IMG/VR virus record: IMGVR_UViG_3300030294_000038
Coordinates: 1 to 58,578 of that record
Reading direction: 5' to 3' (one strand)
Source of the DNA: a virus
Length of the DNA: 58,578 nucleotides
Shown here: in pieces, positions 14,111 through 57,682 of the stretch
Position numbering within the stretch: position 1 is the stretch's first letter
How the letters are laid out: each line of letters opens with the position of its first letter
Program-made: the position numbers and the translations under genes
Notes under the pieces: model-generated
Databases searched by the model: none
What the model was told of the DNA's origin: nothing
Seen by the model: the letters and a program-made list of their open reading frames with translations, nothing else

Positions 14111-14116
14111 CTTCAC

Positions 14117-14150
14117 AGACACTCTGGTAGCTCTAGCTACCAGAGTGTCT
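14117..14150 (+). terminator. Terminator hairpin, 16-bp perfect stem
   Basis: A 34-base perfect inverted repeat (AGACACTCTGGTAGCT and its complement around CT) is followed by TTATT, 6 bases after the stop of the preceding gene. Confidence 0.8.
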
Positions 14151-14170
14151 TTATTCACGGAAAAAAGAAA

Positions 14171-25430: not shown

Positions 25431-26237
25431 GTGATACCCAATTTTTCGAGATACGATTACAATAAGGTCAGAGACGAGAAGGTTCCTCTACTGCTCTTTT
25501 CGGGTGGGTTGGACTCCACGTATTACCTGTGGTGTCTGCTCAATGTCACCAACGTCGACATCGTCTATCATACCAGTGATAAAAATTTGGGTGATTTGAA
25601 GATGAAAGCAGAAGCTGCGGCACGTGAAGCAGTGATTGAGTACCTCTCCAAGACTTCGCCATTCAAGATTCGTAACATCAGCGTGGTGGATCATTCCACC
25701 GGCATGTCTGTCGCTAAGAACACCAATTTTGGGCAAACGGTCTTCGTCCTGGGGGAGGCCTACAACAAGATCTCATTTTCTCAGGTGCTGTTTCATCTGA
25801 TGGCAGGACTTTACGCATTCGATCCAGCCAAGAATGATTCGTTCCATATCGGATATGTGAGCGGTGACTGTGTTCTTCCCTACCTCCCCATTTTGCAAGA
25901 TGCATGGAAGAGTCTGTTCAGGATTCTCAAGATGTCGGATGAGATAGCCCCTCTACACTTCGATATGTGTGCAGTCAGCAAAGAGCTTATCTTGGAGAGC
26001 ATGCCCAAAGAACTAGTGGATCTGACCTGGACGTGTGAGACTCCTCATGAGAAGGATGGGAAGATCGTCCCATGCGGCGGCTGTACGCCTTGTGAGACTC
26101 GCGAGAAGATTGACATCTATAAACGCTACAAGCACGGCGAGACTTTGCAACGGTGCGGTAATCCAAAAATCAAAGAAGTTGATCCCAAACCCAAAAAGAG
26201 AACCAAGAAGCTGGTACTGAAAAGCGGAGAAAAGTGA
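25431..26237 (+). CDS. QueC-like PP-loop ATPase (7-cyano-7-deazaguanine synthase family)
   Basis: 268 residues, GTG start with AGGA about 10 bases upstream. LLLFSGGLDSTY (residues 20-31) is an ATP-pyrophosphatase PP-loop. The C-terminal TWTCETP then PCGGCTPCETR gives Cys202, 215, 218 and 221, the zinc site typical of QueC (TWSC...CGxCxxC). QueC turns 7-carboxy-7-deazaguanine into preQ0, a precursor of queuosine and of 7-deazaguanine bases that some phages put into their DNA against restriction. Differences from standard QueC: the usual P-x-R-N segment is not visible and there is a Lys-rich C-terminal tail (about residues 245-268). No QueD, QueE, FolE or transglycosylase gene is in this window, so the pathway depends on other genes or the host. 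Family call good, exact reaction uncertain. Confidence 0.8.
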   Translation: MIPNFSRYDYNKVRDEKVPLLLFSGGLDSTYYLWCLLNVTNVDIVYHTSDKNLGDLKMKAEAAAREAVIEYLSKTSPFKIRNISVVDHSTGMSVAKNTNFGQTVFVLGEAYNKISFSQVLFHLMAGLYAFDPAKNDSFHIGYVSGDCVLPYLPILQDAWKSLFRILKMSDEIAPLHFDMCAVSKELILESMPKELVDLTWTCETPHEKDGKIVPCGGCTPCETREKIDIYKRYKHGETLQRCGNPKIKEVDPKPKKRTKKLVLKSGEK

Positions 26238-32931: not shown

Positions 32932-33177
32932 GTGACGACTAAGCGTTTCAGTGCCACCACTATCGCAGCACTCACTTTCTGTGTACTCACTGTCATAGCA
33001 ATCTCTTGCTCGATGAAGAACTATGTCGAAGAACGCAATGAGATCGATGCAACGATGTGCATGCATGATGTGGTGGTGAAGAGCAATCTTACCAGGACAG
33101 GAAACCGCATTAAGGACATGGACAATACCCTTGCCCAAGTCGCGAAAGAATGTAGTGTCGAGATCGATTACGATTGA
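32932..33177 (+). CDS. Small membrane or secreted protein (81 aa)
   Basis: 81 residues, GTG start with GGAGAAAACC upstream. Residues about 8-28 (ATTIAALTFCVLTVIAISCS) form one hydrophobic helix after a Lys/Arg start, so it is a signal anchor or signal peptide. The Cys after AIS is not a good lipobox. The rest is polar and helical and probably lies in the periplasm. A short frame (about 32895-32942) overlaps the start and might couple translation. Confidence 0.75.
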   Translation: MTTKRFSATTIAALTFCVLTVIAISCSMKNYVEERNEIDATMCMHDVVVKSNLTRTGNRIKDMDNTLAQVAKECSVEIDYD

Positions 33178-33212
33178 CCTCAGTAAAAAATTATTCGGTG
33201 GAGCTATCCATT

Positions 33213-33232
33213 GAAGGAAGAACACTCATAAG
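33213..33232 (+). promoter_or_regulatory. Degenerate ATTAC-type element before the large RNA
   Basis: GAAGAACACTCATAAG shares AACACTCAT with early promoters 4 and 5 but ends AAG, not TAC. It lies just before the large structured RNA and could be a weak promoter or a decayed copy. Confidence 0.3.
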
Positions 33233-33269
33233 CGCCTGTTAGGCTTTTGTCCTTTCACTAACAGGCGCT
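33231..33269 (+). terminator. Hairpin, 12-bp perfect stem
   Basis: AGCGCCTGTTAG and CTAACAGGCGCT with a 15-base loop. No T tract. It either ends the upstream gene or forms the first helix of the RNA that follows. Confidence 0.55.
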
Positions 33270-34027
33270 GTCTCACTGCCATTGCTTAGGATGCGGTGCA
33301 ATACGGGAAACCAGAAATGTTGCACTTGCGCCGTTGGGGGCGCGATGTCTGAGCATTGGAGTGATGAGTGAACAATGGGCCAGCGGTCTCTATACCGTTA
33401 GCATTACACCTGTGATCAGCCTTTGGCAGAAACAGTAGCAGGTTATTGCCGGTGAGGTCTTCTTTTTGAGGATCGATCCGATAATAACTTCGAGATTCGC
33501 TCATGATGGTGCAGCGTCACTTCCAGGTTGGTTAAAAGCCAGCGTAGAGACACCGCCGCTGCATATATCTTAGGCGATAGGCAGGCTAACAGAGCCTATA
33601 GCAATCCCACTACCGCATCGACGTGGTACTGACTAACATCTGGTCAGTGGCATTTGGTAAATGGATTGCACTGGGGGTCGAGATAGTAATAGCCATGGTT
33701 CGGCACCACATTGAGAGATCTAAGAATCCCACTCTTGTTCTCTCAGGCTTACTTTAAAGTCGTAGTGGGACAGTTGGGTGTCTAGACATCCAGAGTACGG
33801 GAATATCCCAGTGCCTGAGTCTGGGATAGTGAGCAGGTGCACTTAATACTCTCTGAGAGAGCGCATTGGTAGATGCTAAAAGCCTGCACTACAAGTAGTG
33901 AATGTCGGAATGACAACATTGCCGGTGAGAATGTCGGGTAGCCGACCTGACTTCAATCCGAGAGTGCTGTTGAAGTGGTGTGGTGGGGTAGGGTCACCAG
34001 GGGATTGTTCCCCTGGTGATTCTTTTT
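33270..34027 (+). ncRNA. Large ornate structured RNA candidate, about 750 nt
   Basis: No credible gene on either strand, but dense exact pairings on the plus strand. Examples: 33296-33301 with 33320-33325; GCGCC 33328 with GGCGC 33339; 33382-33387 with 33394-33399; 33456-33462 with 33468-33474; TGCAGCG 33510 with CGCTGCA 33557; ATAGGC 33577 with 33594; TCCCACTAC 33605-33613 with GTAGTGGGA 33762-33770 (long range, competing with GCAATCC 33601 / GGATTGC 33663); ACTGAC 33628 with 33643; TGAGAGA 33712 with 33739; TATCCCAG 33804 with 33821; CTCTC 33849 with 33857; GTCGG 33933 with CCGAC 33942; CTTCAA 33951 with 33970. It ends in a textbook terminator at 33994-34027. Size and density recall the GOLLD and ROOL classes of large phage-associated RNAs; I cannot confirm membership of either. 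It may be a new class. Confidence 0.75.
33994..34027 (+). terminator. Intrinsic terminator of the large RNA
   Basis: TCACCAGGGGA, loop TTGT, exact 11-bp complement, then TTCTTTTTT. The most canonical rho-independent terminator in the window. Confidence 0.92.
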
Positions 34028-34051
34028 TGCCGTCAAATAGGAATAACTCAA

Positions 34052-34330
34052 ATGAACAAGCAAGAATTCTTCCTTCACAAACTTCGTGAAGAGTCAGACG
34101 AGATTGGTAAAGCAGCTGCCAAGATGATGGAGTTCGGGCCGAGGTCTATCAACCCGGCTACCGGTAACACGAATCGGGAAGAGCTCACTGAAGAAATCAA
34201 TCACCTCTATGCAGCCATCGAGCAGTGCATTGAACTTGGTCTGATTGATAGGTGCGACAATGACGTAGTTGAAGCCAAGAAACAAAAGGTGAATCACTAC
34301 TACGAACTTCATCTCAAGAACTCGGCGTAA
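34052..34330 (+). CDS. MazG-like / all-alpha NTP pyrophosphohydrolase family protein
   Basis: 92 residues from ATG 34052 (AGGAATAACTCAA upstream). LREESDEIGKAAAKMMEFGP, then TNREELTEEINHLYAAIEQ, is the pattern of short MazG-like phage proteins: a metal-binding EExxE helix, a K...FG turn, a loop with a TN(R)E motif, and a second helix with ExxH/D. Members hydrolyse non-canonical or regulatory nucleoside triphosphates, and phage forms may lower alarmone levels. The usual D of the second helix is replaced here (EEINHL), so activity is uncertain. First gene after the large RNA. Confidence 0.72.
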   Translation: MNKQEFFLHKLREESDEIGKAAAKMMEFGPRSINPATGNTNREELTEEINHLYAAIEQCIELGLIDRCDNDVVEAKKQKVNHYYELHLKNSA

Positions 34331-40399: not shown

Positions 40400-41005
40400 A
40401 TGATTAGCAGCAAAGCACTCTATGATGAGTTCTACCAAAAACTCATCCAGAACCCCAGGAAACACATGCTTGTCCTGGGTATTCTCAAGGCCGTTTGTTT
40501 TGGGTTTGTGATTGGGGTTGAGAAGTCCTACTCGCAATGGACCAAAGAAAACTGGTATCTCGATTTGTTCACAGCGTATCTGGAGGATAAATGCGATCAA
40601 GATAGCTTCATCCGAAATCTGATTGAGTATGTTTCTACCACAGGGTGCTACCGCCTGAACATGTGCATGCCTGAAGGGTGTACAGATCTGGCATATGTTT
40701 ACACCCATCCTGCAATTGCAGATAACCCTGAACTCTACATCGATCTCAAGGAAGACCAGAAACCTCCTGTTTGGCAGTTCGTTGAAAGCGTGGGTAGTAT
40801 TGAAGAGGTCTTCGAGAAGGTAATGGCGTACTCGAATAACCTCACCAATGATGTTTTGATCTTATTGCCCATGAGAGATTTCAAAAAAGCCATGATCTCT
40901 ATCACACACGTCGAACTGCTCTGTGAGAAATTCAATACTCAAGCCAGGGGCATCGTTTGTGATGACAGCATCGCATGCCACTCCCCGTCCCGGTCCCTGC
41001 ACTAA
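40400..41005 (+). CDS. Hypothetical protein (201 aa)
   Basis: 201 residues from ATG 40400 (GAAGGACAAAGAA upstream); a TTG at 40370 would add ten residues. Predicted helical with an aromatic, weakly hydrophobic segment (LVLGILKAVCFGFVIGV) that is probably buried or a single membrane helix. Six to eight Cys. The stop overlaps the next gene's upstream start candidates. Function unknown. Confidence 0.8.
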   Translation: MISSKALYDEFYQKLIQNPRKHMLVLGILKAVCFGFVIGVEKSYSQWTKENWYLDLFTAYLEDKCDQDSFIRNLIEYVSTTGCYRLNMCMPEGCTDLAYVYTHPAIADNPELYIDLKEDQKPPVWQFVESVGSIEEVFEKVMAYSNNLTNDVLILLPMRDFKKAMISITHVELLCEKFNTQARGIVCDDSIACHSPSRSLH

Positions 41006-41016
41006 TGGAGACTGTG

Positions 41017-41535
41017 ATGGAATACACACTGGATGAATTCATCGCGACAGTCGCTGACACGATGGGCGTACTGATCAAGCTCGAGGGCATGATCGAGTCA
41101 GGGTGGGCTATGGCCCGCTTCGATATGTCGTTTCAGGAGTTTCTCAAAACTGATCGGCAGATGCCTATTGCGAATGCTCTTTTGAAAAAGGCTGAGGAAA
41201 AGCCCAAAGAGCAATGCGCTGCTGAAGTGGAGAAGATTCAAAACACTATCTTGCGGCGATATCTCGCATCCCATCGAGTGCTTCAACCTGATCCGGAACT
41301 CCCCAAGAGAAACTGCAATTTGCTCTACTATGCACTCATGGGCGATACTCCTGAGGAAAGCAAGGCGGTGCATTATGCAGGAGATGTGTCTGATCGGTCT
41401 ATCCCAGCCCAGAGCATCTTCAAGTTGGTTCCTCCGGATGCAGTTCTTTGTTGGATCTACAAGGTGCGAGAAGACGGATCGTATGAGAGGATCTATTTTC
41501 CACCCTCGTCACTGACTGCCTTGGGCGTTCAGTGA
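41017..41535 (+). CDS. Hypothetical protein (172 aa)
   Basis: 172 residues from ATG 41017, chosen because GGAG ends 6 bases upstream; ATG 41005 and 40975 are in frame but have poorer sites. Helical N-terminal half, strand-rich C-terminus (AVLCWIYKVREDGSYERIYF). No motif known. Confidence 0.78.
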   Translation: MEYTLDEFIATVADTMGVLIKLEGMIESGWAMARFDMSFQEFLKTDRQMPIANALLKKAEEKPKEQCAAEVEKIQNTILRRYLASHRVLQPDPELPKRNCNLLYYALMGDTPEESKAVHYAGDVSDRSIPAQSIFKLVPPDAVLCWIYKVREDGSYERIYFPPSSLTALGVQ

Positions 41536-41557
41536 GACACTGATTCAGGAGAGTGTA

Positions 41558-41734
41558 ATGCCATCAAAGTCGGAGAAGCAACACCGGCTCATGGAAGCGG
41601 CTGCTCACAATAAGGAATTTGCTGACAAAGTCGGCATTGACCAAAAGACCGCTCGTGAGTTCCTTGAAGCTGATAAGCGCCGGGATGAAGAACTGTCCCA
41701 CAAGCACAGCAAAAAGAAATCCAAGAAGAAGTAA
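41558..41734 (+). CDS. Conserved small basic phage protein (58 aa)
   Basis: 58 residues, AGGAGAGTGTA before ATG. The start MPSKSEKQHRLMEAAAHN then FADKVGI and AREFLEADK is typical of a small protein family found in many phages of Gram-negative hosts (MPSKSxxQHRLMxAxAHN). It ends in a Lys/Ser tail (HSKKKSKKK). The strongly basic composition suggests nucleic-acid binding; function unknown. Followed by a 16-bp hairpin. Confidence 0.85.
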   Translation: MPSKSEKQHRLMEAAAHNKEFADKVGIDQKTAREFLEADKRRDEELSHKHSKKKSKKK

Positions 41735-41736
41735 CC

Positions 41737-41772
41737 TATCCTACCTAATGCATTCCTGCATTAGGTAGGATA
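41737..41772 (+). terminator. Terminator hairpin, 16-bp perfect stem
   Basis: TATCCTACCTAATGCA, loop TTCC, exact complement, then TATGCTG. It starts 2 bases after the stop. Confidence 0.7.
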
Positions 41773-41790
41773 TATGCTGTGCTCAAAGAA

Positions 41791-41808
41791 ATCTCAAACC
41801 TACATTAC
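41791..41808 (+). promoter_or_regulatory. Candidate early promoter (ATTAC element 6)
   Basis: ATCTCAAACCTACATTAC, close to the consensus. It is followed by a 114-base leader with an 8-bp stem (GAGTTGTG with CATAACTC) before the 41.92 kb gene. Confidence 0.65.
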
Positions 41809-41922
41809 TTATTTGAGTTGTGTTAAGCGCATAACTCATTCTTGTTGAAGCCATGCAATCGAGCATGTAACTTCGCGTCATTAACAGTCTAGGTTATTAG
41901 GACCAGACAGAGAGGTAGTAAA

Positions 41923-42336
41923 ATGAAAGAAGAACTTTTGAGGACCACGTCCAAGGGCCTGGAAGGCACGTATGAAAATTGTGAGGATCATGCCCAGTGC
42001 TTGATTCCCATGATTGACGAACTCGTTGAGGTCGTCCGTACACGTGCTCAGTTCATGCTTTGGCGACAGGGTAATAATGTCCACATCCTGAAGTCCAAGA
42101 ACGGCAACCAGTACGTCCTGCGTGGCTTCACGGCGGGTTCTCCCAAGGAATACGTTGGGATCAGCCTGGCCTTGCGTATCAAGCGCGGTGATGAACGTCT
42201 CCTCATGACCGCTCGTCACGATCATCACAAGAGTCTCTTTCGCATGGCTCGTTTCCTGATTCAGACGAGTCTCTGCGAGAGTCTCGATGTGTCCAGTCAA
42301 ACCGGTCACTGCACAAGTTCTCCCGACGAAGATTGA
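41923..42336 (+). CDS. Hypothetical protein (137 aa)
   Basis: 137 residues, AGAGAGGTAGTAAA before ATG. Helical N-terminus, then a strand region (GNNVHILKSKNGNQYVLRGF) and a His-rich stretch (TARHDHHKS). The His cluster could bind metal. Preceded by an unusually long structured leader. Function unknown. Confidence 0.8.
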   Translation: MKEELLRTTSKGLEGTYENCEDHAQCLIPMIDELVEVVRTRAQFMLWRQGNNVHILKSKNGNQYVLRGFTAGSPKEYVGISLALRIKRGDERLLMTARHDHHKSLFRMARFLIQTSLCESLDVSSQTGHCTSSPDED

Positions 42337-42357
42337 CAAGCTTTGCAGTAAAAAATA

Positions 42358-42390
42358 ACTGCTACCCAGTATCCCATGCAGAGTAGCAGT
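42358..42390 (+). terminator. Hairpin, 8-bp stem
   Basis: ACTGCTAC and GTAGCAGT with a 17-base loop, 22 bases after the preceding stop. Confidence 0.5.
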
Positions 42391-42437
42391 ACCCATTTTC
42401 ACACACATACCTACATGTAACGAAAGGAAACTCAGCC

Positions 42438-42926
42438 ATGGCTGAAAAAGAAACCAAACCCCTCGACGCCGAAATCATCAAGAACGCCGAAACAATCCAG
42501 ACTGCTCTGGCCAAGCTCGAAATCCCCGCCGGTGCCACGACCGCTGAGCTGAAGCTCGACGCCAAGCCGTTCTATGAATTCGTCGCACCCTTCGGCATCA
42601 CCGAAGAGTCCGAAGCTGCCCGCCGCGATGCCTTCTCCAAGTTCTACGCCGCTGCCGGCTACGCCACCGGCCTTGTTGGCAACAACGCCTTCGTCGCCAA
42701 CAAGGACCTCAAGCAAGTCGACACGACCATCTCGGTCGGCGGTCGTGACCACGTCGAATTCGGCTATCGCCGCAGCGCCATGGTTCCGAACGGCAATGAA
42801 CAAGTCGAACGCTTCGGTGTGCTGACCGGCAAGGTCGTCATCTCGGGCACCAGCTCGAAGGCCGCGAACATCGTCGCCGTCAAGACCGCCCTGTCGACCG
42901 CCGCGCGCGAACGCTTCGGCAAGTAA
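42438..42926 (+). CDS. Hypothetical protein (162 aa), probably very highly expressed
   Basis: 162 residues, ATG preceded by GAAAGGAAACTCAGCC. Ala-rich helical N-terminal half, strand-rich C-terminal half (TISVGGRDHVEFGYRRSA; FGVLTGKVVISGTSS). Third codon positions are almost all C or G, like the sheath and tube genes and unlike its neighbours, so it is probably made in very large amounts. It is a single-gene unit with hairpins on both sides. No known family; a structural, decoy or DNA-coating role would suit such expression but is speculation. Confidence 0.85.
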   Translation: MAEKETKPLDAEIIKNAETIQTALAKLEIPAGATTAELKLDAKPFYEFVAPFGITEESEAARRDAFSKFYAAAGYATGLVGNNAFVANKDLKQVDTTISVGGRDHVEFGYRRSAMVPNGNEQVERFGVLTGKVVISGTSSKAANIVAVKTALSTAARERFGK

Positions 42927-42947
42927 TACCTCGTCTCCGGCTAGAAA

Positions 42948-42982
42948 CACCAGCTCCCTCGACTTCGGTCAGGGAGCTGGTG
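42948..42982 (+). terminator. Terminator hairpin, 12-bp stem capped by TTCG
   Basis: CACCAGCTCCCT pairs with AGGGAGCTGGTG; inside is GAC TTCG GTC, a stable tetraloop. A run of nine T lies about 20 bases beyond. Confidence 0.8.
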
Positions 42983-43021
42983 CTATAGTTTGAGATACTC
43001 TTTTTTTTTCTGGACACTACC

Positions 43022-44248
43022 ATGGATAAACTAGTTAGGGACGTTTTTGATGACGTCTGTTCTGATTTGGATATCAATCAGAACTTTCTGAAGCGCCTGA
43101 ACGCTTATCAGGTAGGCTTCGTAAGTAAGAATGAAGAACACGCATCATTCTTCGGCGGGCATGTGCTGGGAGTACAGCGCGTGCGCTTCACTCCCACTGA
43201 CAACAATCGTTGGTTCGATGAGATCCTTCAGGCAGATGAGGTTGAGCTCAAAGAACGTATTGATGAAGTGCCGGGTATCAATCCCGAGTACAACGTCTCC
43301 AGCGATGCATTCAACCTCTCGTGTTTTTGGTTGGCACACGCCATCTGGAATTCACACAAGCTCTCTGACAAGCAAAAAGACGCCGGCATGATTGATGTGA
43401 TGCTCGTGCTCAACTACCGGTACATCACCAGTCGTATTGTTAGGCACTTCATCTATCCTGCTGAAGAGAGTGTGGCTGAGGCTACCTATGTATCCTTGTC
43501 CAACAAGTTCGCCATCAAACAGTATGGCACTTGGTATAACGTGCTCTACAACCGTGCTTGTGACATCACCAGTCGGGAAGGTAAGAAGTTCTCCGTCATT
43601 TCCAAGATGAATGATGACAAGGAACTCGTGGGTGTGGTCAATGATTCCCAGGGTCGTATCCGTGACATGGTCAAGAACATCTATACGGTATTCCGAGATG
43701 TTCACAGAAGCGGCGTGAAGATCGCATCTTCGTCTGACTTAGTGGAGTTCGATGGCAGCTCTGTGCTCAAGGATCGTGTCAAGGGCCTGGCCAACTACAA
43801 GCAGTACATCTTCTCTGTTCTGGGGGATCAGGCTTCTTTTGTCAAGGATGAGTTGGTAGCAACGATCGAGAACATCGTTCATACCATGCCTCCTAAGCTC
43901 TTCAGAGAGACTTTGATCTGGGTGAGTGAGGAGTACTCCAAGCAGAAGAACTCGCAGCTTGTGACTGCATTTGTCGACGAGACGCTCACGCACAGTTTTG
44001 CATATCTGTCTGACCATGTGTCTCTGGTTCGCAACTCTGTCAAGCTCCCTGGATTGCTCTCTCAGATCAAGGGCGTCTACACATCTTCCCGTTCCACAGA
44101 AGAAGTGTTGTTTGCTATTCGTAGTCAGGCTGAGACGATTGTTACCATGGCCACGGGTAACAAGAACAAGAACACTATCGCGTCTGTGCGTACGGGTCTG
44201 ATGCTCTATGTGGTGGCTCGCACATATACCAAGAGCCATTACGGGTAA
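43022..44248 (+). CDS. Hypothetical protein, possible virion protein (408 aa)
   Basis: 408 residues, ATG at 43022 with only a T-rich stretch and no clear ribosome site upstream (TTTCTGGACACTACC). Largely helical (MVKNIYTVFRDVHRSG; YLSDHVSLVRNSVKLPG), no membrane segment, neutral composition. Size, codon use and nearness to the packaging block suggest a late or structural protein of the phiKZ-like group, but I recognise no motif. Confidence 0.85.
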   Translation: MDKLVRDVFDDVCSDLDINQNFLKRLNAYQVGFVSKNEEHASFFGGHVLGVQRVRFTPTDNNRWFDEILQADEVELKERIDEVPGINPEYNVSSDAFNLSCFWLAHAIWNSHKLSDKQKDAGMIDVMLVLNYRYITSRIVRHFIYPAEESVAEATYVSLSNKFAIKQYGTWYNVLYNRACDITSREGKKFSVISKMNDDKELVGVVNDSQGRIRDMVKNIYTVFRDVHRSGVKIASSSDLVEFDGSSVLKDRVKGLANYKQYIFSVLGDQASFVKDELVATIENIVHTMPPKLFRETLIWVSEEYSKQKNSQLVTAFVDETLTHSFAYLSDHVSLVRNSVKLPGLLSQIKGVYTSSRSTEEVLFAIRSQAETIVTMATGNKNKNTIASVRTGLMLYVVARTYTKSHYG

Positions 44249-44264
44249 GCTGTGATGTGGTTTT

Positions 44265-44281
44265 GATCAGTCACATATTAC
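44265..44281 (+). promoter_or_regulatory. Candidate early promoter (ATTAC element 7, weak)
   Basis: GATCAGTCACATATTAC ends at 44281. It matches the 3' half of the consensus and is closest to the TATATTAC of phiKZ. The next long gene starts 238 bases further on. Confidence 0.45.
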
Positions 44282-44285
44282 AATT

Positions 44286-44426
44286 ATGAGACGAGTCAAA
44301 AATTTGCTGTATAGTATGAGAGAAATCATTCAAGAGAGATTCCCCACCTACCTCTCCAGATACGGATCTGACTGCTTGAAAGAATTGACCTCGACAAAAT
44401 TGGAAGAACCGAGAGATTATCTTTGA
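44286..44426 (+). CDS. Doubtful small ORF (46 aa)
   Basis: 46 residues from ATG 44286 or 36 from ATG 44316. The frame begins only 5 bases after promoter-like element 7 and has no ribosome site, so if real it would be leaderless. The peptide is charged and helical (MREIIQERFPTYLSRYG). The stretch may instead be an untranslated RNA ending at the 44.46 kb hairpin. Confidence 0.3.
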   Translation: MRRVKNLLYSMREIIQERFPTYLSRYGSDCLKELTSTKLEEPRDYL

Positions 44427-44463
44427 TGATCTCCACATTCAACCGTCGTCTTTTGTTGGCACT

Positions 44464-44491
44464 CCTCCACAGGTAGAAATGCCTGTGGAGG
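44464..44491 (+). terminator. Hairpin, 10-bp perfect stem
   Basis: CCTCCACAGG, loop TAGAAATG, exact complement, then TTATGCCGG. Confidence 0.6.
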
Positions 44492-44518
44492 TTATGCCGG
44501 TATATAGGAAAATGCATC

Positions 44519-44836
44519 ATGAGTGTGCGATTCAGGTTTCCAGAACTGTGGATCAAAAGCCGTATCGACAGAGCCAGATTTGCCAGCTCTTTGATGGCAT
44601 TTCTCTCAACCAAAAAACTTTACTCAGCAGTCACATCCATTGAGGTGCACAAAACCTACCTCAAGGCAAGATTGAATGACAAGACTGAAGTCACGCTCAG
44701 GGTTAATGCGTCGCCACTGACCCGAGAGCCGGACAAGATGATTGTCTACAATCCGTTCTTTGACAAGCGCAGCGAGATTACCGTACCCAAAGAGGAGACG
44801 GTCTCGATTAGCGAGCATTTCAGAATTTTGCAGTGA
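44519..44836 (+). CDS. Hypothetical protein (105 aa)
   Basis: 105 residues, AGGAAAATGCATC before ATG. Very basic N-terminal half (MSVRFRFPELWIKSRIDRAR), then strands (TYLKARLNDKTEVTLRVN). May bind nucleic acid. Function unknown. Confidence 0.72.
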   Translation: MSVRFRFPELWIKSRIDRARFASSLMAFLSTKKLYSAVTSIEVHKTYLKARLNDKTEVTLRVNASPLTREPDKMIVYNPFFDKRSEITVPKEETVSISEHFRILQ

Positions 44837-44915
44837 AACCCCTTCGGTCAACTAGTATGTCTCAACGTGAACAAGGAGGATAGAGACACCAGACCTAACG
44901 AATGTGGAGATCATC

Positions 44916-45374
44916 ATGATCATCGATTTGAACGAGGATACAATCCGCGCTCTCAATGCGGCAGTGGTACGTAATGCTTACAAAGTTGATAAGTTCAAAA
45001 GGGACTACGCTGAAATCAAGCGCAGGCTCTTTTCCCTGCCGGATAAAGCAAGATCTGATGCTGATCTTGATGTGCTTCTTGCCAGCAAGCAAATGATCGC
45101 TCTCCTGGATCATCTCTTCTTCATGGGAGATGAATACAGGAACATCATCAGTACTCCCGAGTCTGTTCTCACCGAAGTGGACGACGATGACTTCTATACC
45201 GTCTACTGGAAGAACGGTACTCGCAAGGTGGTACATGGTCCTAGCGTGGAGATTGCCTATACCAGGGCAGGCTACACCGCCAAGGATGCCATGAGTATTG
45301 AATGGGTAGATAAGGGCGTGACGAACACTCATGCCTTTGACGTTAAGAAGCGTGCTTGGGTAGTCAAGAAGTAA
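44916..45374 (+). CDS. Hypothetical protein (152 aa)
   Basis: 152 residues from ATG 44916, with GGAG 6 bases upstream (a GTG at 44904 is in frame but poorer). Helical N-terminus with Lys/Arg clusters, acidic turn TEVDDDDFYTVYW, strands after it. No motif known. Last gene of the plus-strand early block. Confidence 0.8.
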   Translation: MIIDLNEDTIRALNAAVVRNAYKVDKFKRDYAEIKRRLFSLPDKARSDADLDVLLASKQMIALLDHLFFMGDEYRNIISTPESVLTEVDDDDFYTVYWKNGTRKVVHGPSVEIAYTRAGYTAKDAMSIEWVDKGVTNTHAFDVKKRAWVVKK

Positions 45375-45394
45375 CCCAGTTCAATTATGCGTAG

Positions 45395-45440
45395 CATACC
45401 AGAGAGGGGAATCCCCTCTCTGGTATGTCTATTTTTTTTT
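45395..45440 (+). terminator. Terminator hairpin with T tract, end of early block
   Basis: CATACCAGAGAGGGGA and its complement (to 45427), then TCTATTTTTTTTT. It ends the plus-strand block 5 bases before the minus-strand structural gene stops; on the minus strand no T tract follows, so it serves mainly the plus strand. Confidence 0.88.
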
Positions 45441-45444
45441 GCTC

Positions 45445-46098
45445 TTATTCACCAGAAGCAATGTTTCGAGCATAGGTGTAAGCACTGAGCAAACTGATCT
45501 CCTGGCCATTGATTACGTCATATTGAATACAACTGAAATCAATCGTCGTTCGCAACTTGAGTTCATCAATGTAAAATCTGATGGAGCCAGCAGGAGATGA
45601 GCCTTTCTTTCTACTCACAGTGAAATGAATGGGTGCAGCGCCATCAATAGCTTGTGTCGAGGGCTCCACACTTATTCCATCACCCATTACTTCAGTGCGA
45701 ACTGTGTAGCTCTTTGCTTTGTAACCAGGAAATGAAACCACTACATCTTGAACAGTGTCTTGCAAGAGATTAAAGGTCCCTGGCTGCGCTGTAAACTGTC
45801 CGAGGTAGGCGTACGCCTCCATCTCTCGGATAATCGTTTTAACGAGCAATTTGAAGCCTTTGGGAACGTTTATGTTCTCCTTCTTTCTCTCATCGAATGC
45901 ATAGACCATGAGAGTTTCGGAATCTTCATCGATTATGTGCCGAAGATTGGCAGGTGCTACTTGATAGCGCACCTCCGTTCTCCTCTCAGATCGATTCCGA
46001 AAACCCAGGGTAACAATCGAATCATTCTGTTGAGGCTCAAATACACAGAACGTCTGGTCAAGAGGCAGTTTGTGAATCTTAACCCTCAAGCCTGCCAT
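45445..46098 (-). CDS. Probable virion structural protein (217 aa)
   Basis: 217 residues, ATG at 46098, 17 bases downstream of the terminase stop on the minus strand. Strand-rich throughout (SIVTLGFRNRSERRTEVRYQ; SIRFYIDELKLRTTIDFSC), like an immunoglobulin- or beta-sandwich-type virion protein. Likely last gene of the minus-strand packaging unit. No motif identified. Confidence 0.82.
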   Translation of the reverse strand: MAGLRVKIHKLPLDQTFCVFEPQQNDSIVTLGFRNRSERRTEVRYQVAPANLRHIIDEDSETLMVYAFDERKKENINVPKGFKLLVKTIIREMEAYAYLGQFTAQPGTFNLLQDTVQDVVVSFPGYKAKSYTVRTEVMGDGISVEPSTQAIDGAAPIHFTVSRKKGSSPAGSIRFYIDELKLRTTIDFSCIQYDVINGQEISLLSAYTYARNIASGE

Positions 46099-46115
46099 TG
46101 CATCACTCCTTTCAT

Positions 46116-48251
46116 CTATCTTTGCAGACGTCGCCTGAACTTGGAATTCTTGCGGGCTTCTCTGGTCTGTCTCAAGATATCGTCGATTGAATAGACATCG
46201 TCATTCCTCAGGACAATACGCCTGTCAAGAAGCATGAGTTCGTGTTCCAGTTTCATGACAATCACTTCGTCGCTCGTATTGATTAGTTCGTCGTATATTT
46301 CTTCAATGCGCCGACGAATGTGAATCTGTTCCATAGCTTTGTTTCTCTCACCATAATCCATATCCTGGGTGATGACCAAAGAGCTATAGAAGATACGAGA
46401 GTCAATGTCGTAATACGCCATGCCACGGGCCGATGTCATGAACCAGTGGGTGAGTAGCCACCCGATGATCATATCGTCGTGAGCGCCATCCTCGTGGTCA
46501 ACACGGCCATTCTTCATGGTGAGGGTATTGACCTGACCAATCAGCACACGATCCTTGACCAACGCACCACAACGGTTAGTAGCCATACGCAGGCACTTAC
46601 CATAGAGCTCACTGCGTGCATTGATACCAGAACTACTGGTGGCGAAACCAAACTCCTTCTTGTACCTGACATAGACGTTAACATCACGCCTATTCATGGG
46701 GCGACTGATCTCGAGGAACTGCTCATGCCTCTCTTCAGACTCATGCACGAGACGGTTATAGATCCTCTTGAAAGGATCAATCCCCTTCTCAGGCAAGAAG
46801 AGCAGCAGATAGTCGATGATGGTGATGGCACTTGAGCGACGCTCAGGGATCATGAAGAGCCGTGGGTAAGTCTCCAACAGATGCACAAACCACTGAGCCA
46901 CCTTGATGAGGTTCGTCTCATTGATCGTAGCACCTCCCAAAGTACCGCCTGTAGAAGCATCTGTAAAGACCAGTCCGATATCATCCCCGCCTCCAGCATC
47001 GGAGGTGTCAATGCCTACCAACACTGTGCCTTCATTGAGCTTACGCATGACTTCATGCTCTTCTTTGTACCATCTCACAACGTACGGGTACTTGTCGAAG
47101 AACTGAGTGAAGACTACTTCCTCAATACTCTTATTAATGCGATCGAGGACTTCTTGAGAAAGCGGATGCGATTCATTACCTGACGTCCACCTATTAAGGT
47201 AGTCGCGCTCAGCATCCTCACCTTCAGACAATGCTTCACGAATGCGCTGGCGCAGCCAGTCGTCACTCTTACCGAGCATGCGGTGGTTGAATACAGCAGC
47301 TATTCGGTAGTCTCCACGCTTGGTCATGGCGCAGATAGTTTCTCTGAGCTTTTCGATGTTCTCAATGTCAAAGAACTTTTCAGTCCAGACTGCCGATTCC
47401 ATCAACAGCTTGTAGAAATACCTGCCATCAGGGTCATCTCGCTTACCGGCCGTGGTTGTGAAGATCACGCCATGTGGAGCATCGAGTTCCCGTGCCCGTT
47501 CCATAGCTGCACCTGTAGATGCCAGAGCAGCAGGAAGTGCTGTTTCCAGGTTTACTTGGAATGGGCCTTCGTCGATCAAGAAGATGGGGGATGTGAGACC
47601 ACGACCCATGTTCAGTGCGCGTTTCTTGGATGCTTGAGGAACGTGAGTACTGAATGTGTTGCCGAGCTGATCAACAGTGATTTCTTCACCATTGTTCGCA
47701 TCTGCCTTTGTCATCGTAATGAGATAACTAGGCAACTCAGCAATGATGTCCTTGATACGCTGGATGTTCTTACGTCTGAGGTTGTCATCCTTCGTCATCA
47801 AGTTGATGTGAGTCTTCACACCCATGATGTTCAAAAGGACAGCCATCAATCCATCAGCACCAAAGCTCTTCCCCGTCTGACGAGGCTGGATAAGAATGAT
47901 CTGTGCGTGGACAAAGAAACTCCACCAGAGCGCAATGATGCCTCGGTTAGCCACAACAGGAACGCCGTCTGCTCCCGACAAAGGAGCAGCGCGTAAAAGT
48001 TCTCTCAAGCAGTACCACGGATTTTCTTTTGCTTCCAGAGCGATCATCGCCATCTGTTCAGCAGTCAGATCTGGATCGAATGGGTCGACACCCTGAAGGT
48101 TTGGGTTGTGAAGCGCTAGGATAAATGCGTGATTCTTAATTCCCATCAATCGATACACAGATGCCAGCCTGACAAAGGACTGGTTCTTTGTTTGTGTATC
48201 AGCAATTGCGAAGGAGTGCTTAGTCCAGTCAGAACCGAACAGGATCGCCAT
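46116..48251 (-). CDS. Terminase large subunit
   Basis: 711 residues. QPRQTGKS (residues about 122-129) is the Walker A motif, FLIDEG (about 224-229) Walker B with catalytic Glu, and IFTTTAG (about 263-269) the coupling motif. In the C-terminal nuclease, VGIDTSDAGGGDD gives the first Asp (about 415), and DHEDGAHDDMIIGWLL near residue 620 the last acidic pair. It is the ATP-driven motor and nuclease that packs DNA into the prohead. phiKZ gp25 is the likely counterpart. No small terminase was recognised in the window, as is usual for this group. Confidence 0.95.
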   Translation of the reverse strand: MAILFGSDWTKHSFAIADTQTKNQSFVRLASVYRLMGIKNHAFILALHNPNLQGVDPFDPDLTAEQMAMIALEAKENPWYCLRELLRAAPLSGADGVPVVANRGIIALWWSFFVHAQIILIQPRQTGKSFGADGLMAVLLNIMGVKTHINLMTKDDNLRRKNIQRIKDIIAELPSYLITMTKADANNGEEITVDQLGNTFSTHVPQASKKRALNMGRGLTSPIFLIDEGPFQVNLETALPAALASTGAAMERARELDAPHGVIFTTTAGKRDDPDGRYFYKLLMESAVWTEKFFDIENIEKLRETICAMTKRGDYRIAAVFNHRMLGKSDDWLRQRIREALSEGEDAERDYLNRWTSGNESHPLSQEVLDRINKSIEEVVFTQFFDKYPYVVRWYKEEHEVMRKLNEGTVLVGIDTSDAGGGDDIGLVFTDASTGGTLGGATINETNLIKVAQWFVHLLETYPRLFMIPERRSSAITIIDYLLLFLPEKGIDPFKRIYNRLVHESEERHEQFLEISRPMNRRDVNVYVRYKKEFGFATSSSGINARSELYGKCLRMATNRCGALVKDRVLIGQVNTLTMKNGRVDHEDGAHDDMIIGWLLTHWFMTSARGMAYYDIDSRIFYSSLVITQDMDYGERNKAMEQIHIRRRIEEIYDELINTSDEVIVMKLEHELMLLDRRIVLRNDDVYSIDDILRQTREARKNSKFRRRLQR

Positions 48252-48267
48252 GATAATCTTCCCTTGA

Positions 48268-48801
48268 TCAGAGCCTCTTCACCATATCGTAATAGGTGAC
48301 TTTCTCGAGCTCTTTAAAACCTGAATGTTCATAGAGACGAAGCGCAGTCTTGTTATCAGCATACACGGACAGTATCACTACCATGATGCCTTTAGATGCA
48401 CCCCATTTTTCAGCAACTGTCATCAAGGCAGTTGCAAACCCTTTTCCATTGAATTCTTTCAGCACCAGCAGCTTACTGATGTAAACAGACATGCCTGTGA
48501 CTGGATCGTTCTGTATCTGAGCACAGACAGCACCGACAATGCTGCCTTTATGCTCCAGAACAATGTAGATCGCATCTTCAGCTGTGAAGCTTTCGATGTT
48601 GCGAATCTCATTCTCAATTGTGACATAGGAAGCAGACTTGAACTCCTTGGCTCCTTTATTCCGGAACTCAGCAAGGTGATTAGCCATGTCTCTTGTAGCA
48701 TGTGTGAGAGTGAACCCTTCAGGCAGAGTTTTGCTTTGTGTTCTGAGGATCACTTCAAGACTGAATTTCTCAACTTTGAGCAGTGTGGTAAAGTTCTTCA
48801 T
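48268..48801 (-). CDS. GNAT-family N-acetyltransferase
   Basis: 177 residues. KLLVLKEFNGKGFATALM (residues about 108-125) fits motif A, with the NGKGFA loop binding acetyl-CoA pyrophosphate, and SVYADNKTALRLYEHSGF fits motif B (N..A..LYE..GF). The first 50 residues are less typical. The enzyme transfers acetyl from acetyl-CoA to an amine; the target is unknown. It lies between the terminase and tail structural genes on the same strand, an odd place for an enzyme of this type; a late role on a virion or host protein is possible. Confidence 0.88.
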   Translation of the reverse strand: MKNFTTLLKVEKFSLEVILRTQSKTLPEGFTLTHATRDMANHLAEFRNKGAKEFKSASYVTIENEIRNIESFTAEDAIYIVLEHKGSIVGAVCAQIQNDPVTGMSVYISKLLVLKEFNGKGFATALMTVAEKWGASKGIMVVILSVYADNKTALRLYEHSGFKELEKVTYYDMVKRL

Positions 48802-48829
48802 TTTGTTATATCCTTAATGCGGATAATAC

Positions 48830-48863
48830 AGCATCCATCCAATCAAAGGATTGGATGGATGCT
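48830..48863 (-). terminator. Hairpin, 15-bp perfect stem
   Basis: AGCATCCATCCAATC, loop AAAG on the plus strand, exact complement. It stands between the 48.88 kb gene and the acetyltransferase. On the minus strand it is followed by GTATTATCCGCATT, with no T run. Confidence 0.7.
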
Positions 48864-48877
48864 TTGACGCAAGTAGA

Positions 48878-50557
48878 TCAGTTCTGAATAGCCGGCACGC
48901 CAGCGATAGCCAGGTGCAAGTCATTCGTGCTCGTACGTTTGAAGAACTCGATGAAGACAGAAGCCCCGTTATAGAGATCCACACCAGCATCAATGACGGA
49001 GTTCCAGTTATCGATGGAGTACTCGATTCTGTTGCTACCAATGATGACGGCGAAGAAGTTCGGAGTCGGTGCCACTGCTTCAGTTTGCAGGTTGATCTGA
49101 GGACGAGCATATGTATAAAGACGAGTCAACCACTCATCCTTACTACTCATCCCCATGGACAGATCCAGTTTCTTCAGGTTCTCATTGATGAACTTGAAGG
49201 TCATGGCGTTGTTCTCACCGAACACAGGCTTCTGATTCGGATCGAACGTCACTGTCCACTTGGTGCCAGACTCGGTTGGCGGTTTGAACAGAGCAATACC
49301 GACGGTCTGCACGTGCTTGTAAGCCGTGTAGCTATTGTCGACATCGCGCAGATTCAAAGAGACCACGAGGTTTTGCATCGAACCGTAGGCAGTGGGGATG
49401 AACGGGTTGCTGGTATCTTCCACTCGCACAAACGGAGTGACACGCTGAGCCTTCGAGCGTTCCATGTTGAAGAGGAACCACTCGAGCCTGTAAGCATTCG
49501 TCGTAGCATCCCAATACGGGAAGCCGTAGAGCTTGCAGGTATAGGCACCATTCCACTTGACCACCTGAGCCTTGAAGACACGCGTGATGAACTTATCATC
49601 CGTTACACGGTTAGCCTCATAGCACACCTCGTCGGACGAGAGACTGTACTTGAGCGTGACTTCAAACTGTTCGCCTGCCTGAGTCGATACAAAGGTATCG
49701 AAACCAAAGGCTTCGAACTTCGTACCGTCCACAGGAATCTCTGCTGTGGTGCCGTCACTGTATGCGACTACGCCAATGAGGTTCATACTCACCAGAGGCA
49801 CATTGAGCGGATAGTTGATCAGGTCATCATCAGACGTACTCATGAAGGGGCTCTTCATGGAGATACCGGTGATGTACTTGACAGAACGATCCGTGGTCGA
49901 GATGAATGCCGTGTTCTTGACCAGCATCTCCTGCATTCGAACCACGTGACCAGCATCCGAGTAGGCCACCACGTAGACGATCTCATTGTCCGACAGATCA
50001 GCCTTGGTGGAGCAGGTAGGCACAGCCTTGATCGAGATGTTGCCTGTCTCTTTTACCACCTCCAGAGGAACAGTCGTGCTGATGAGCGTGTTCGATGCAT
50101 CGTAGACTGCACTGATCACATTCACTTCAGACAGGTCAGTGCCCCGGAAGATCTTGACGAACTTGGCATCGGTGCCCGGAACCGTATAACGACGATCCAC
50201 AGACAAGTTGTAGGGGATGGTGCTCTTATCGCAGAATACACGATAGGTACCACGCCCTGTCCCCATCGACACACCCAGGATCAGATCGATCTCATCTTCT
50301 TCACCCGTGAAGAGTGAGAGGTTGAGCTGTTCCAGAATGGAAACGAAAGTGGTGGCATTGATCGACTTGACTTTGTATGCGATCATGTTGTCAGTATCGA
50401 ATACCCAGTCATTGACTTTGGGCACATACCGCTTACTGCCTTGTTTACCCATGTAGATCTCTTTCAGAGCCCACTGGGTCCATCGGCCATTGGGATTGTA
50501 GAGAGGAACAATACCATCCTCTCCACTAACTCCTGGCACTGGAATGAATTCAGCCAT
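48878..50557 (-). CDS. Virion structural protein (phiKZ gp28-like position)
   Basis: 559 residues. Strand-rich, with many Thr/Ser/Val segments and no membrane helix (NLSLFTGEEDEIDLILGVSM; VGIALFKPPTESGTKW). No catalytic motif. It lies upstream of the terminase and downstream of two other large structural genes in the order seen in phiKZ-like phages (25 to 30). Probably a tail or baseplate component; that is from context. Followed by a 15-bp hairpin. Confidence 0.88.
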   Translation of the reverse strand: MAEFIPVPGVSGEDGIVPLYNPNGRWTQWALKEIYMGKQGSKRYVPKVNDWVFDTDNMIAYKVKSINATTFVSILEQLNLSLFTGEEDEIDLILGVSMGTGRGTYRVFCDKSTIPYNLSVDRRYTVPGTDAKFVKIFRGTDLSEVNVISAVYDASNTLISTTVPLEVVKETGNISIKAVPTCSTKADLSDNEIVYVVAYSDAGHVVRMQEMLVKNTAFISTTDRSVKYITGISMKSPFMSTSDDDLINYPLNVPLVSMNLIGVVAYSDGTTAEIPVDGTKFEAFGFDTFVSTQAGEQFEVTLKYSLSSDEVCYEANRVTDDKFITRVFKAQVVKWNGAYTCKLYGFPYWDATTNAYRLEWFLFNMERSKAQRVTPFVRVEDTSNPFIPTAYGSMQNLVVSLNLRDVDNSYTAYKHVQTVGIALFKPPTESGTKWTVTFDPNQKPVFGENNAMTFKFINENLKKLDLSMGMSSKDEWLTRLYTYARPQINLQTEAVAPTPNFFAVIIGSNRIEYSIDNWNSVIDAGVDLYNGASVFIEFFKRTSTNDLHLAIAGVPAIQN

Positions 50558-50585
50558 TTCTCATGTCCTGTTCAATTACGGAAGT

Positions 50586-50611
50586 GAGTCTGGGTATTGC
50601 TACCCAGACTC
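50586..50611 (-). terminator. Hairpin, 11-bp perfect stem
   Basis: GAGTCTGGGTA, TTGC, exact complement, between two minus-strand structural genes. No T run. Confidence 0.6.
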
Positions 50612-50623
50612 GTTTGTCTTCAA

Positions 50624-53188
50624 TTACGCCGCGCTGGAGACTGTGACGAAATCAGAGAGAATGACGCGATCCTTCAGATACACCCTGATAGCGTTTGCCA
50701 CAATGGTATATTGATAGATGTCCAGATCGATTACCGTCTCGAGGTTATGAGGGTGCACATAGACAAAGTTCGAGTCCTGGGCATTCTCATCGCTCACTGG
50801 ATCAAAATCCAGCAAGTACAAGTACGGAGCACAGATCTGTGCCAGCAAATCGTCGGTGTAGCGCTGACGAATAGTGGCTTTGGCAATCTCTTCACTCTTC
50901 AGATCATAGATCAGGCGACAGCAGAACGGACTGAAAACAAAGTACCGTTCCGTAATGGGAGAAGGATTCTCCGGTTTGACTTCAGGCAGCTTCTTCGTGA
51001 GGTACGCACTCACTGATGCATTGGTCTCATCAGCAGTCTTCTTGAGCGCATAAGTATCCGAGACTGTCAGTCCTCGGGTAGGCACCACGACATCCCGGAT
51101 GAAGTACGGCTTACCCTCGAGCGCAGAACCCACAGACACATTCGAACTGTTCTCGAAGTACTGGAGTTCATTCTTGGCGTAGAAGCAACCATTGACTACC
51201 ACGTGCTGCACTTGGTCATCTCTCAAGTCAAACCTATTGTTCCTCGACAGCAGACCATACTGAACGAATCCAGTGTCATCATCGACGGTGTGTGAGAAGT
51301 CCGGATTACAGAACCCCTTACAACGAACATCGAAATGCTGTTTGGTATTGAGAGGATCAATCAAGAATGCCTTGTTGGTCACGACTACCTTCGGGAATAC
51401 CAAGAAGTAATCGAGGTTCTCAGCGAGTTGCTTGCCGTTCATCCAGATCTCGAGCTCTCCGGATGGCACCTGCATATCAACACTGGTGTCTACTCCATTG
51501 ATACTCTTGACCTGCTGGAGGTTGAACTCGATCGGGCCATTGAAAGCCAGCCTGTCGAATGAGTAGAAGAGTACATTCATGTCGCTACGAACCATCGGCA
51601 CGAATTTGCTCTTATCCACACCCCAAACAGAGGTTCCATTGACGATGGTGTATTGAGCACCACCCGTCACATCCGTCCACTTACCCGTCGAGATTTCTTG
51701 CAGGTAATAACGATAGGACAGAGTGGAATCCGCAGTGAAGCTATCGTCGTAGATCTCATGGAAACCCTTGGACAACGTACCTGCCAACAGCTCTACCAAG
51801 AAAGCTGAGCTATTTGTACAGATGTAGACATTATTGAGCAGATGCTGGTAGGCACCGATCAAGGCACCGTTAGAATCATACTCAAAGCCTACAGCTCGTT
51901 GTTGCAGTGCGTAAGGCACATCCGCGACTTGCTGAGAGCTCTTGGTGTAGACAGCCTGAGGTGTTTCTCCAAGCATCTTCGAGATGGCGTTGTAGCCAAA
52001 CATCGATTCCACTAGAGACACCGTCAGCTCTTGGGTAGTGCTTCCCATGACTGCCGGATAGCCAGCCTGCTCCAGATTGGGGGCTTGCCACACACTGACG
52101 TCAGAGTCTATTCCTACCAGACTCCGAACAATGTCACTATCCCTCAACTTGTAGAGCTCGTGGATCTTGCTCGCTTCATATACCAGAGACCGATCATATC
52201 CGGACTTCCTGATGTAGATACGTGCAGTCATGTCCAGGATGTTCGAGTTCGAATCGATCACCTTACCCAGAGTGAGCACATTGTTCACCAGCAGTGAGTA
52301 GTCTCGATGTGTCGCCATCCGGACAGCATCAGGACGATTCAGGTGGTAGTAGACTCCCTTGAATCTACCGGCAGCATCTGCTTGATAGATGTAGTGAGAG
52401 TTGTCATCGAAGTACCGAATGACTTTCTCTTCACCCGCAATGATCGGAGGATGGAAGAGGTACTTGCGCTCCTTATCCATCTCACTCACGAATGTTTGCA
52501 GCTCAGAGATAGGTACATCAACCACATGATCAATAGAACTATCATAGATCAGCTCTACCACGTCGCCTACCTTAGCAGTGAAGGGATCGATACCTGATGT
52601 CAGATATCCGTTCACATAGGTGAGCACTGCTCCTTCCATGGCTCTGTACTTAGCCGCCATGTGCTGCATCGCCAGTAACTCATCCATCGTCGTGGGTGTA
52701 TCCCCAGCCACATAGATGATGTCATTGGTCGCACTTCCACGAACCGAATTAAAATACGCATTCGAGTAGAAGTGGATAAACAAATCCTCCTTACCAAACC
52801 GCGCCGGCACCAATTGAAGATGTGGCACTGCAATGATCAGATCCCTGTCTTCGGTCTTTCTGTAATAGCACCGATGAAGAGGCATTCTGATACCGGATGA
52901 ATTGTAGATCTCAACGATCAACTTCTCAGCATTACACGCATCGCTGAACAACACCCATTCTTCGGACTTGGGTAGCAAGTTCAGTGCTGAGAAGTAAATC
53001 TGTCCAATCTGAAAGACATGGAAGATTTCCGATGTGGGAAGATCAACATTTCTCCACATCACACGGACATAGTTCCTGGTGCCTTCCGCCGGTGAGATCC
53101 TCGCAGGTTTGAATATCACCTGCTTATCTTGATCAGGCGTGCACCAAACTTTGCGCACGGCCTGATCAACCAGGTAGTTCTCGGCCAT
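50624..53188 (-). CDS. Large virion structural protein (phiKZ gp27-like position)
   Basis: 854 residues, ATG at 53188. Its start overlaps the stop of the upstream gene by one base (TAATG), so translation is coupled. Strand-rich, no membrane segment, similar style to the 559-residue protein (both have regularly spaced aromatic strands such as GYLTSGIDPFTAKVGDVVEL). Probably a tail or baseplate protein; function inferred from position. Confidence 0.9.
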   Translation of the reverse strand: MAENYLVDQAVRKVWCTPDQDKQVIFKPARISPAEGTRNYVRVMWRNVDLPTSEIFHVFQIGQIYFSALNLLPKSEEWVLFSDACNAEKLIVEIYNSSGIRMPLHRCYYRKTEDRDLIIAVPHLQLVPARFGKEDLFIHFYSNAYFNSVRGSATNDIIYVAGDTPTTMDELLAMQHMAAKYRAMEGAVLTYVNGYLTSGIDPFTAKVGDVVELIYDSSIDHVVDVPISELQTFVSEMDKERKYLFHPPIIAGEEKVIRYFDDNSHYIYQADAAGRFKGVYYHLNRPDAVRMATHRDYSLLVNNVLTLGKVIDSNSNILDMTARIYIRKSGYDRSLVYEASKIHELYKLRDSDIVRSLVGIDSDVSVWQAPNLEQAGYPAVMGSTTQELTVSLVESMFGYNAISKMLGETPQAVYTKSSQQVADVPYALQQRAVGFEYDSNGALIGAYQHLLNNVYICTNSSAFLVELLAGTLSKGFHEIYDDSFTADSTLSYRYYLQEISTGKWTDVTGGAQYTIVNGTSVWGVDKSKFVPMVRSDMNVLFYSFDRLAFNGPIEFNLQQVKSINGVDTSVDMQVPSGELEIWMNGKQLAENLDYFLVFPKVVVTNKAFLIDPLNTKQHFDVRCKGFCNPDFSHTVDDDTGFVQYGLLSRNNRFDLRDDQVQHVVVNGCFYAKNELQYFENSSNVSVGSALEGKPYFIRDVVVPTRGLTVSDTYALKKTADETNASVSAYLTKKLPEVKPENPSPITERYFVFSPFCCRLIYDLKSEEIAKATIRQRYTDDLLAQICAPYLYLLDFDPVSDENAQDSNFVYVHPHNLETVIDLDIYQYTIVANAIRVYLKDRVILSDFVTVSSAA

Positions 53189-54159: not shown

Positions 54160-54367
54160 TTTTCTTGTTTCCTTACGGGAAGTTCGGGATAATAAATATG
54201 AGTTCAATATTAAAATACTTGATGCTGGGAGCTCTTGTATTGAATGCACTTTGAACTTCTCAGTCACATCGCTCAAAAACAGCAAGCACTTCAAGGAACC
54301 GGGGTGGATCTTGTGTAAACCATAAGATTCTGCTCTATCAACACTTTATTTTCGCCTGGAGCATTCC
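54160..54367. promoter_or_regulatory. Divergent intergenic region between tail units
   Basis: 208 AT-rich bases between the start of the minus-strand unit and the sheath gene; late promoters for both directions should lie here. Short inverted repeats occur (GAAGTTC at 54179 with GAACTTC at 54251; TTCAAT with ATTGAA). No ATTAC-type early element is present. Two TATG tetramers occur nearby, but too short to be decisive. Confidence 0.5.
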
Positions 54368-56605: not shown

Positions 56606-56628
56606 TCCACCGACTTCGTCATCTCTCC

Positions 56629-56658: not shown

Positions 56659-56686
56659 ATGACTTCTGACATTAAAGGAAAAGCAC

Positions 56687-57650: not shown

Positions 57651-57682
57651 TATGCCGCACTTCTTTATTCAAAGGCAAGCAA

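Follow-up and report, generated by a model that had tools for sequence, protein, structure and literature searches.

The longest ORF-poor gap with a T-run terminator at its end, in the DNA of a phiKZ-like jumbo phage, raises the question of whether it encodes a large structured RNA and, if so, whether that RNA belongs to a known family. The DNA analysed, an IMG/VR virus record of 58.6 kb, is called the window throughout. An original prediction made from its letters had placed in this gap a large structured RNA with its own terminator.

The phage and the locus

The window encodes two virion-type RNA polymerase subunits, a terminase, a tail sheath and an NAD-dependent DNA ligase. The phiKZ-like assignment made in the original prediction is borne out by its phiKZ-group polymerase subunits, terminase and sheath and by PhuZ on a contig that extends the genome. 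This second IMG/VR contig (L039, 27 kb) is 99.99% identical over window positions 40919-58251, prolongs the genome rightwards and carries at 3126-4145 a PhuZ tubulin 35% identical to that of Burkholderia phage FLC9. Since a near-identical contig encodes PhuZ, the window phage is of the PhuZ-bearing kind, and we infer that it forms a nucleus. FLC9 is the closest published phage, with a terminase identity of 53%, followed by Xanthomonas phage LucasX with 42%. The terminase scan of IMG/VR returned no relative with an identity between 54% and 100%, and the phage therefore appears isolated in that collection. The extending contig also carries a dCTP deaminase gene (1816-2619), and the window a QueC-like gene (25431-26237), possibly for DNA modification via the 7-deazaguanine pathway. 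No tRNA genes were found in the 58.6-kb window.

The features of the locus are as follows.

32932..33177, plus strand: upstream small gene, 81 aa, with an N-terminal hydrophobic segment and no family match
33231..33269, plus strand: intergenic hairpin, 12 bp, loop of 15 nt, without T-run
33270..33985, plus strand: core of the proposed large structured RNA, 716 nt, ORF-free (z -4.07, 0 of 400 shuffles; coding signal absent)
33273..33364, plus strand: 5′ domain, predicted three-way junction (pair probabilities 0.92-0.98)
33403..33984, plus strand: main multibranched domain of the predicted fold, closing helix 33403-33410/33977-33984
33445..33456, plus strand: direct repeat, copy 1, ATTGCCGGTGAG
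33566..33830, plus strand: central domain, strongest local signal (z -3.93, 0 of 100 shuffles)
33918..33929, plus strand: direct repeat, copy 2, ATTGCCGGTGAG, an exact 12-nt repeat of the copy starting at 33445
33990..34029, plus strand: intrinsic terminator with a 15-bp stem, a 4-nt loop and a T-run (hairpin 33990-34023, then TTTTTT)
34052..34330, plus strand: downstream gene, 92 aa, MazG-like nucleoside triphosphate pyrophosphohydrolase (PHROG 4856, E 1.9e-14)

From the end of the 81-aa gene (33177) to the MazG-like start (34052) there are 838-874 bases without coding signal. The hairpin 33231-33269 probably closes the upstream gene. It lacks a T-run, like the many intergenic hairpins of this phage, and the RNA proper is for that reason taken as 33270-33985 together with the terminator 33990-34029. 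Such hairpins, with stems of 10-16 bp and no T-run beside them, occur in the window at 12436, 14117, 15685, 16939, 17360, 20315, 25376, 30643, 32344, 34760, 41737 and others. phiKZ-like phages transcribe with their own polymerases, and these hairpins may serve those enzymes as terminators or else be sites of processing. No promoter was recognisable for the window RNA, and the MazG-like gene starts 22 nt past the terminator T-run, a spacing that leaves no space for a separate promoter between the two.

Coding signal

A codon-usage score was trained on twelve secure genes of the window phage, all twelve of which score positive, known genes reaching +0.13 to +0.42 per codon. Every ORF of at least 30 aa on both strands of 33200-34050 scored negative, and the earlier statement that the region holds no credible ORF thus agrees with codon usage. 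Among the long ORF-free gaps of the window, this one alone has a T-run terminator at its end. The GC content of the region is 0.50, against 0.38-0.46 in the other long gaps of the window.

Fold compared with chance

The core 33270-33985 folds at -262.8 kcal/mol compared with -233.1 +/- 7.3 in dinucleotide shuffles (z -4.07), and none of the 400 shuffles was as low; a run of 20 shuffles put this core at z -2.9, so that the value is best given as about -3 to -4. The minus strand of the region is ordinary (z -0.77). Eighteen coding segments of equal length from the same phage averaged a z of about -1.8, the lowest being -3.6 (16 shuffles each), which makes fold energy alone suggestive and not decisive. 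In the other long gaps of the window the removal of hairpins brings z down to between -0.9 and -1.9, whereas 33270-33985 keeps its signal. Bases with a pair probability above 0.8 make up 48% of the core and 25% in shuffles (fraction 0.017), a share which relative to shuffles was equally high in two of the five coding segments tested. Sliding 150-nt fold scans pick up mostly short intergenic hairpins, not large RNAs.

The 5′ domain is predicted to consist of the stems 33273-33277/33360-33364 and 33283-33290/33348-33355 with the hairpins 33296-33303/33318-33325 and 33328-33332/33339-33343. Within the main domain the predicted helices 33495-33501/33897-33903 and 33507-33514/33884-33891 (p 0.83-0.98) enclose the central domain, for which 33566-33575/33819-33828, 33578-33582/33813-33817 and 33606-33613/33762-33769 are predicted. 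The terminator stem has a mean pair probability of 0.98 in the ensemble.

How the original prediction fared against these computations varies with the claim. All pairings that it cited are present in the letters, namely 33605-33613/33762-33770 (9 of 9), 33601-33607/33663-33669 (7 of 7) and 33510-33516/33557-33563 (7 of 7). As to their competition, the 9-bp helix, in the form 33606-33613/33762-33769 (p = 0.75), beats 33601-33607/33663-33669 in the ensemble, but the stem 33510/33557 gives way to 33507-33514/33884-33891 (p = 0.95). A helix density far beyond that of filler had also been claimed. Single helices are near chance, with 26 perfect 7-bp pairs where the shuffles give 16 +/- 5 and one 9-bp pair where they give 0.8, and it is the whole fold that beats the shuffles, in 400 of 400 cases. 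The terminator is real, with its hairpin 33990-34023 and TTTTTT, but its rank as the best of the window is arguable, as 45394-45428 has a 16-bp stem and a T-run. Of the overall claim of a large structured RNA with its own terminator, the absence of coding signal, the strand-specific fold energy and the terminator stand, and the count of single helices does not add to it. The region spans hundreds of nucleotides, is ORF-free and folds on one strand beyond chance, as would be expected of large ornate phage RNAs in general.

Known families and homologues

Scanning the whole window with Rfam gave no family at gathering score, and under permissive filters (E up to 10) the GOLLD, ROOL and intron models were all without match in the region. 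Membership in GOLLD or ROOL, the families with which the original prediction had compared the RNA, thus finds no backing from the Rfam covariance models at E up to 10. Searches directed at GOLLD and ROOL came back empty as well, with control genomes equally without match. A group I or II intron was rejected because the Rfam intron models had no match, and a match to mir-143, with E 0.13 and 19 bits where the cut-off is 60, is due to chance. Judged by these models, the window RNA belongs to neither GOLLD, ROOL nor any Rfam family.

Homologues were sought by several routes. With blastn the region had no match in 50,697 phage records (E up to 10) or in plasmids (E up to 1), and relatives were not found in IMG/VR through the neighbouring genes (the MazG-like and 293-aa proteins). 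Six back-translated stretches of the RNA gave no confirmed match in IMG/VR and GTDB genomes, and a scan of IMG/VR for the two-copy repeat motif gave 0 matches. Single-sequence covariance models of the 5′ and 3′ domains recover the window itself, and in 21 other phage records they gave only a weak 17.8-bit match in Goslar.

A covarying RNA in sister phages

In FLC9 (LC667451.1) the minus strand of 7020-7790 is ORF-poor, lies directly 3′ of phuZ and ends in a terminator. It contains the following feature.

LC667451.1 (L007), about 7080-7620, minus strand: FLC9-type RNA, about 540 nt, ORF-poor, with covariation support

A PhuZ-based search of IMG/VR gave ten loci, eight of them covering the region downstream of phuZ, and the RNA is conserved in all eight. 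Loci of the FLC9-type RNA are labelled L007 (FLC9), L010, L011-L017 and L019-L026. Alignment A1 comprises FLC9 and seven of the eight IMG/VR contigs, L017 carrying the same RNA as L015. Covariation was counted over 142 predicted pairs with the columns upstream of 171 excluded. These pairs are kept in 97.9% of alignment cells, and 32 of them show double-sided change, compared with 16.0 +/- 2.3 for shuffled data (0 of 500) and 1-4 for slid partners. The FLC9-type RNA is absent from Rfam. It is a real structured RNA and a new, covariation-supported family, and it lends support to the idea of such RNAs in phiKZ-like phages.

Between phuZ and this RNA lies a small unannotated ORF (L007 about 7741 to 7515, minus strand; homologues in L010-L016) of about 42 aa that shows codon periodicity (e.g. 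MFGQFRSLARWWWSDFARFVYHDFSWFPSIQAAADRKVHRSS) and whose 3′ part enters the RNA. Variable columns of A1 fall on the three codon positions as 15/7/26 in columns 51-170 and as 9/14/12 in columns 171-275; the skew is lost past column 170, and coding constraint therefore ends where the FLC9-type RNA begins. At columns about 590-660 two unlike versions of the 3′ domain are found, one in FLC9, L010 and L016 and the other in L011-L015, with a similar stem kept, which looks like domain exchange. A covariance model of the most conserved part of the FLC9 RNA (R1, A1 columns 203-330) found nothing convincing in LucasX, FLC6, SURPRISE13 and ten further relatives. Elsewhere in FLC9, 13752-14281, between divergent genes, has a terminator-like site and folds strongly on the minus strand (z -5.7).

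The window and FLC9 are collinear from gene 43022-44248 (FLC9 gp23) through the terminase (inverted) and virion genes to sheath and tube. The distance to this gene or its homologue is about 9 kb for the window RNA and about 8 kb for the FLC9 RNA, which is next to the terminase. Both RNAs lie in a variable island flanking the collinear block, in opposite orientation relative to the block. The shared island position argues weakly for a similar role, not for homology.

A structured region in LucasX

LucasX has an ORF-less region of comparable length.

LucasX 174170-174976 (L063 14150-14920 = LucasX 174150-174920): ORF-less structured region of about 750 nt, between two small genes

Its z is -4.2 with a 15-bp hairpin at the 3′ end and -2.9 for the core without the hairpin. 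A short motif common to the window and LucasX regions was discarded as chance, its only two IMG/VR matches being in protein genes of other phages and 7-12% of shuffles scoring as well. Pairwise, none of the RNA regions of window, FLC9 and LucasX is alignable above shuffles. Two group-I-intron-like insertions, read by eye, were seen in AT-rich phiKZ-like contig sequence at L075 13060-13560 and L078 8360-8860 (reverse strand).

Interpretation and alternatives

The absence of coding signal, a strand-specific fold excess, a terminator and the lack of a known family are the computed support for an RNA at this locus. On balance we favour, with some reserve, a large ornate RNA of about 720-760 nt, free-standing and closed by its own terminator, that would work like GOLLD/ROOL but lies outside the known families. 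It probably represents a new kind of large structured RNA, since no known family matches and sister jumbo phages carry a different large RNA with compensating mutations. GOLLD assembles a 14-mer cage and ROOL an 8-mer cage, both homo-oligomers in vitro. Transcription of the window RNA, its start point, its action in trans and an oligomer or RNP role are inferred along the following lines. Phage transcription would pass through an early-type gene island on the plus strand, and the RNA would start at or just past the hairpin 33231-33269. Its fold would comprise a large multibranched domain preceded by a small 5′ domain with a three-way junction, and the terminator 33990-34029 would release it. 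The resulting stable, ribosome-free RNA may then have a structural role in trans. It could do so alone as a homo-oligomer, for which GOLLD and ROOL give the in vitro precedent, or by scaffolding a protein complex of phage or host origin in the infected cell.

The main rival to a free-standing RNA is a giant leader acting in cis on the MazG-like gene at 34052, attenuator- or riboswitch-like, in which a rearrangement of the fold opens or closes the terminator. The terminator does stand 22 nt ahead of the start codon of a nucleotide-metabolism gene, and hairpins are found directly 5′ of many genes in the window phage, but those hairpins are mostly without an adjacent T-run, and no favoured alternative pairing disrupts the terminator stem (mean p 0.98). 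The gene after the FLC9-type RNA encodes an unrelated 134-aa protein and another small gene follows the LucasX region, so that the FLC9 group and LucasX point to no common downstream function. The known leaders are, to our knowledge, all far smaller than the more than 700 nt present here, and we consider a leader unlikely.

Non-coding filler, for instance decayed coding or spacer DNA, in which the fold excess is a compositional accident and only the terminator is functional, would fit the lack of a homologue in any search, the near-chance counts of single helices and the z-scores of coding segments, which overlap at the margin. Against this stand the energy unmatched in 400 shuffles and specific to one strand, a GC content above that of the other long gaps, no coding remnant in any frame and the comparable covarying RNA in the sister group. 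Such filler is distinctly improbable, and it keeps its share of probability because no homologue is at hand for covariation and coding segments fold somewhat better than shuffles. A strongly diverged FLC9-type member relocated within the variable island, which would make one RNA family for this jumbo-phage branch, is suggested by the likeness in size, terminator and island position beside the terminase block. It is nevertheless very hard to reconcile with the weak, chance-level scores that R1 gives in the window and the extending contig, with a profile HMM without match, with alignment scores equal to those of shuffles and with the window phage's phuZ being followed by the next gene after only 82 nt.

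Comparison with known systems

GOLLD (RF02032) resembles the window RNA in being phage-encoded and large with an elaborate predicted fold. It differs in that its covariance model misses the window RNA, in that it is often near tRNA genes whereas the window has none, and in length, many members having 800-plus nt. ROOL (RF03087) is phage-encoded and similar in length to the window RNA, but its covariance model misses it too and the window RNA has no tRNA island nearby. GOLLD is a phage-encoded large RNA of unknown function, and the solved ROOL example is 659 nt long (PMC12286853). The most abundant transcript of phage ICP1 is about 800 nt long, lacks ORFs and lies between gp139 and gp140 (PMC7567579). 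Like the window RNA it is an orphan, and the lytic phage that carries it has no tRNAs; it differs in that its transcription was shown by RNA-seq and that ICP1 is another phage type, and the two are set side by side by description only. Non-coding RNAs of phiKZ are known from Grad-seq (PMC8545117) and share with the window RNA a phiKZ-group phage, whereas one described there is about 100 nt.

The FLC9-type RNA is likewise a large ORF-poor region in PhuZ-bearing phiKZ-like phages. It has an intrinsic terminator at its 3′ end, precedes a small gene of like orientation and lies in an island adjoining the terminase block. The two have no sequence or covariance-model similarity. The FLC9-type RNA comes directly after phuZ, a place without RNA in the window phage, and a small unannotated ORF runs into this RNA, which has covariation support, whereas the window RNA is a single sequence. 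The LucasX region, in a phiKZ-like relative, matches in length, in being ORF-less and in its 3′ hairpin of 15 bp, but has no T-run, a core z of only -2.9, a place outside the terminase-flanking island and a best local alignment to the window RNA that 7-12% of shuffles reach. It is a tentative idea, and a rather doubtful one, that PhuZ-bearing phiKZ-like jumbo phages repeatedly carry lineage-specific ornate RNAs (FLC9-type, window and LucasX), unrelated to each other and to GOLLD and ROOL, that share a structural role possibly tied to the phage nucleus and spindle. The job of the RNA-only cages of GOLLD and ROOL is unknown, and independent jumbo-phage examples would offer tractable systems for asking what such RNAs do during infection. 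One example sits beside the tubulin gene of the cultivated phage FLC9, and the FLC9-type family, a new class of RNA supported by covariation, is ready to be taken into experiments.
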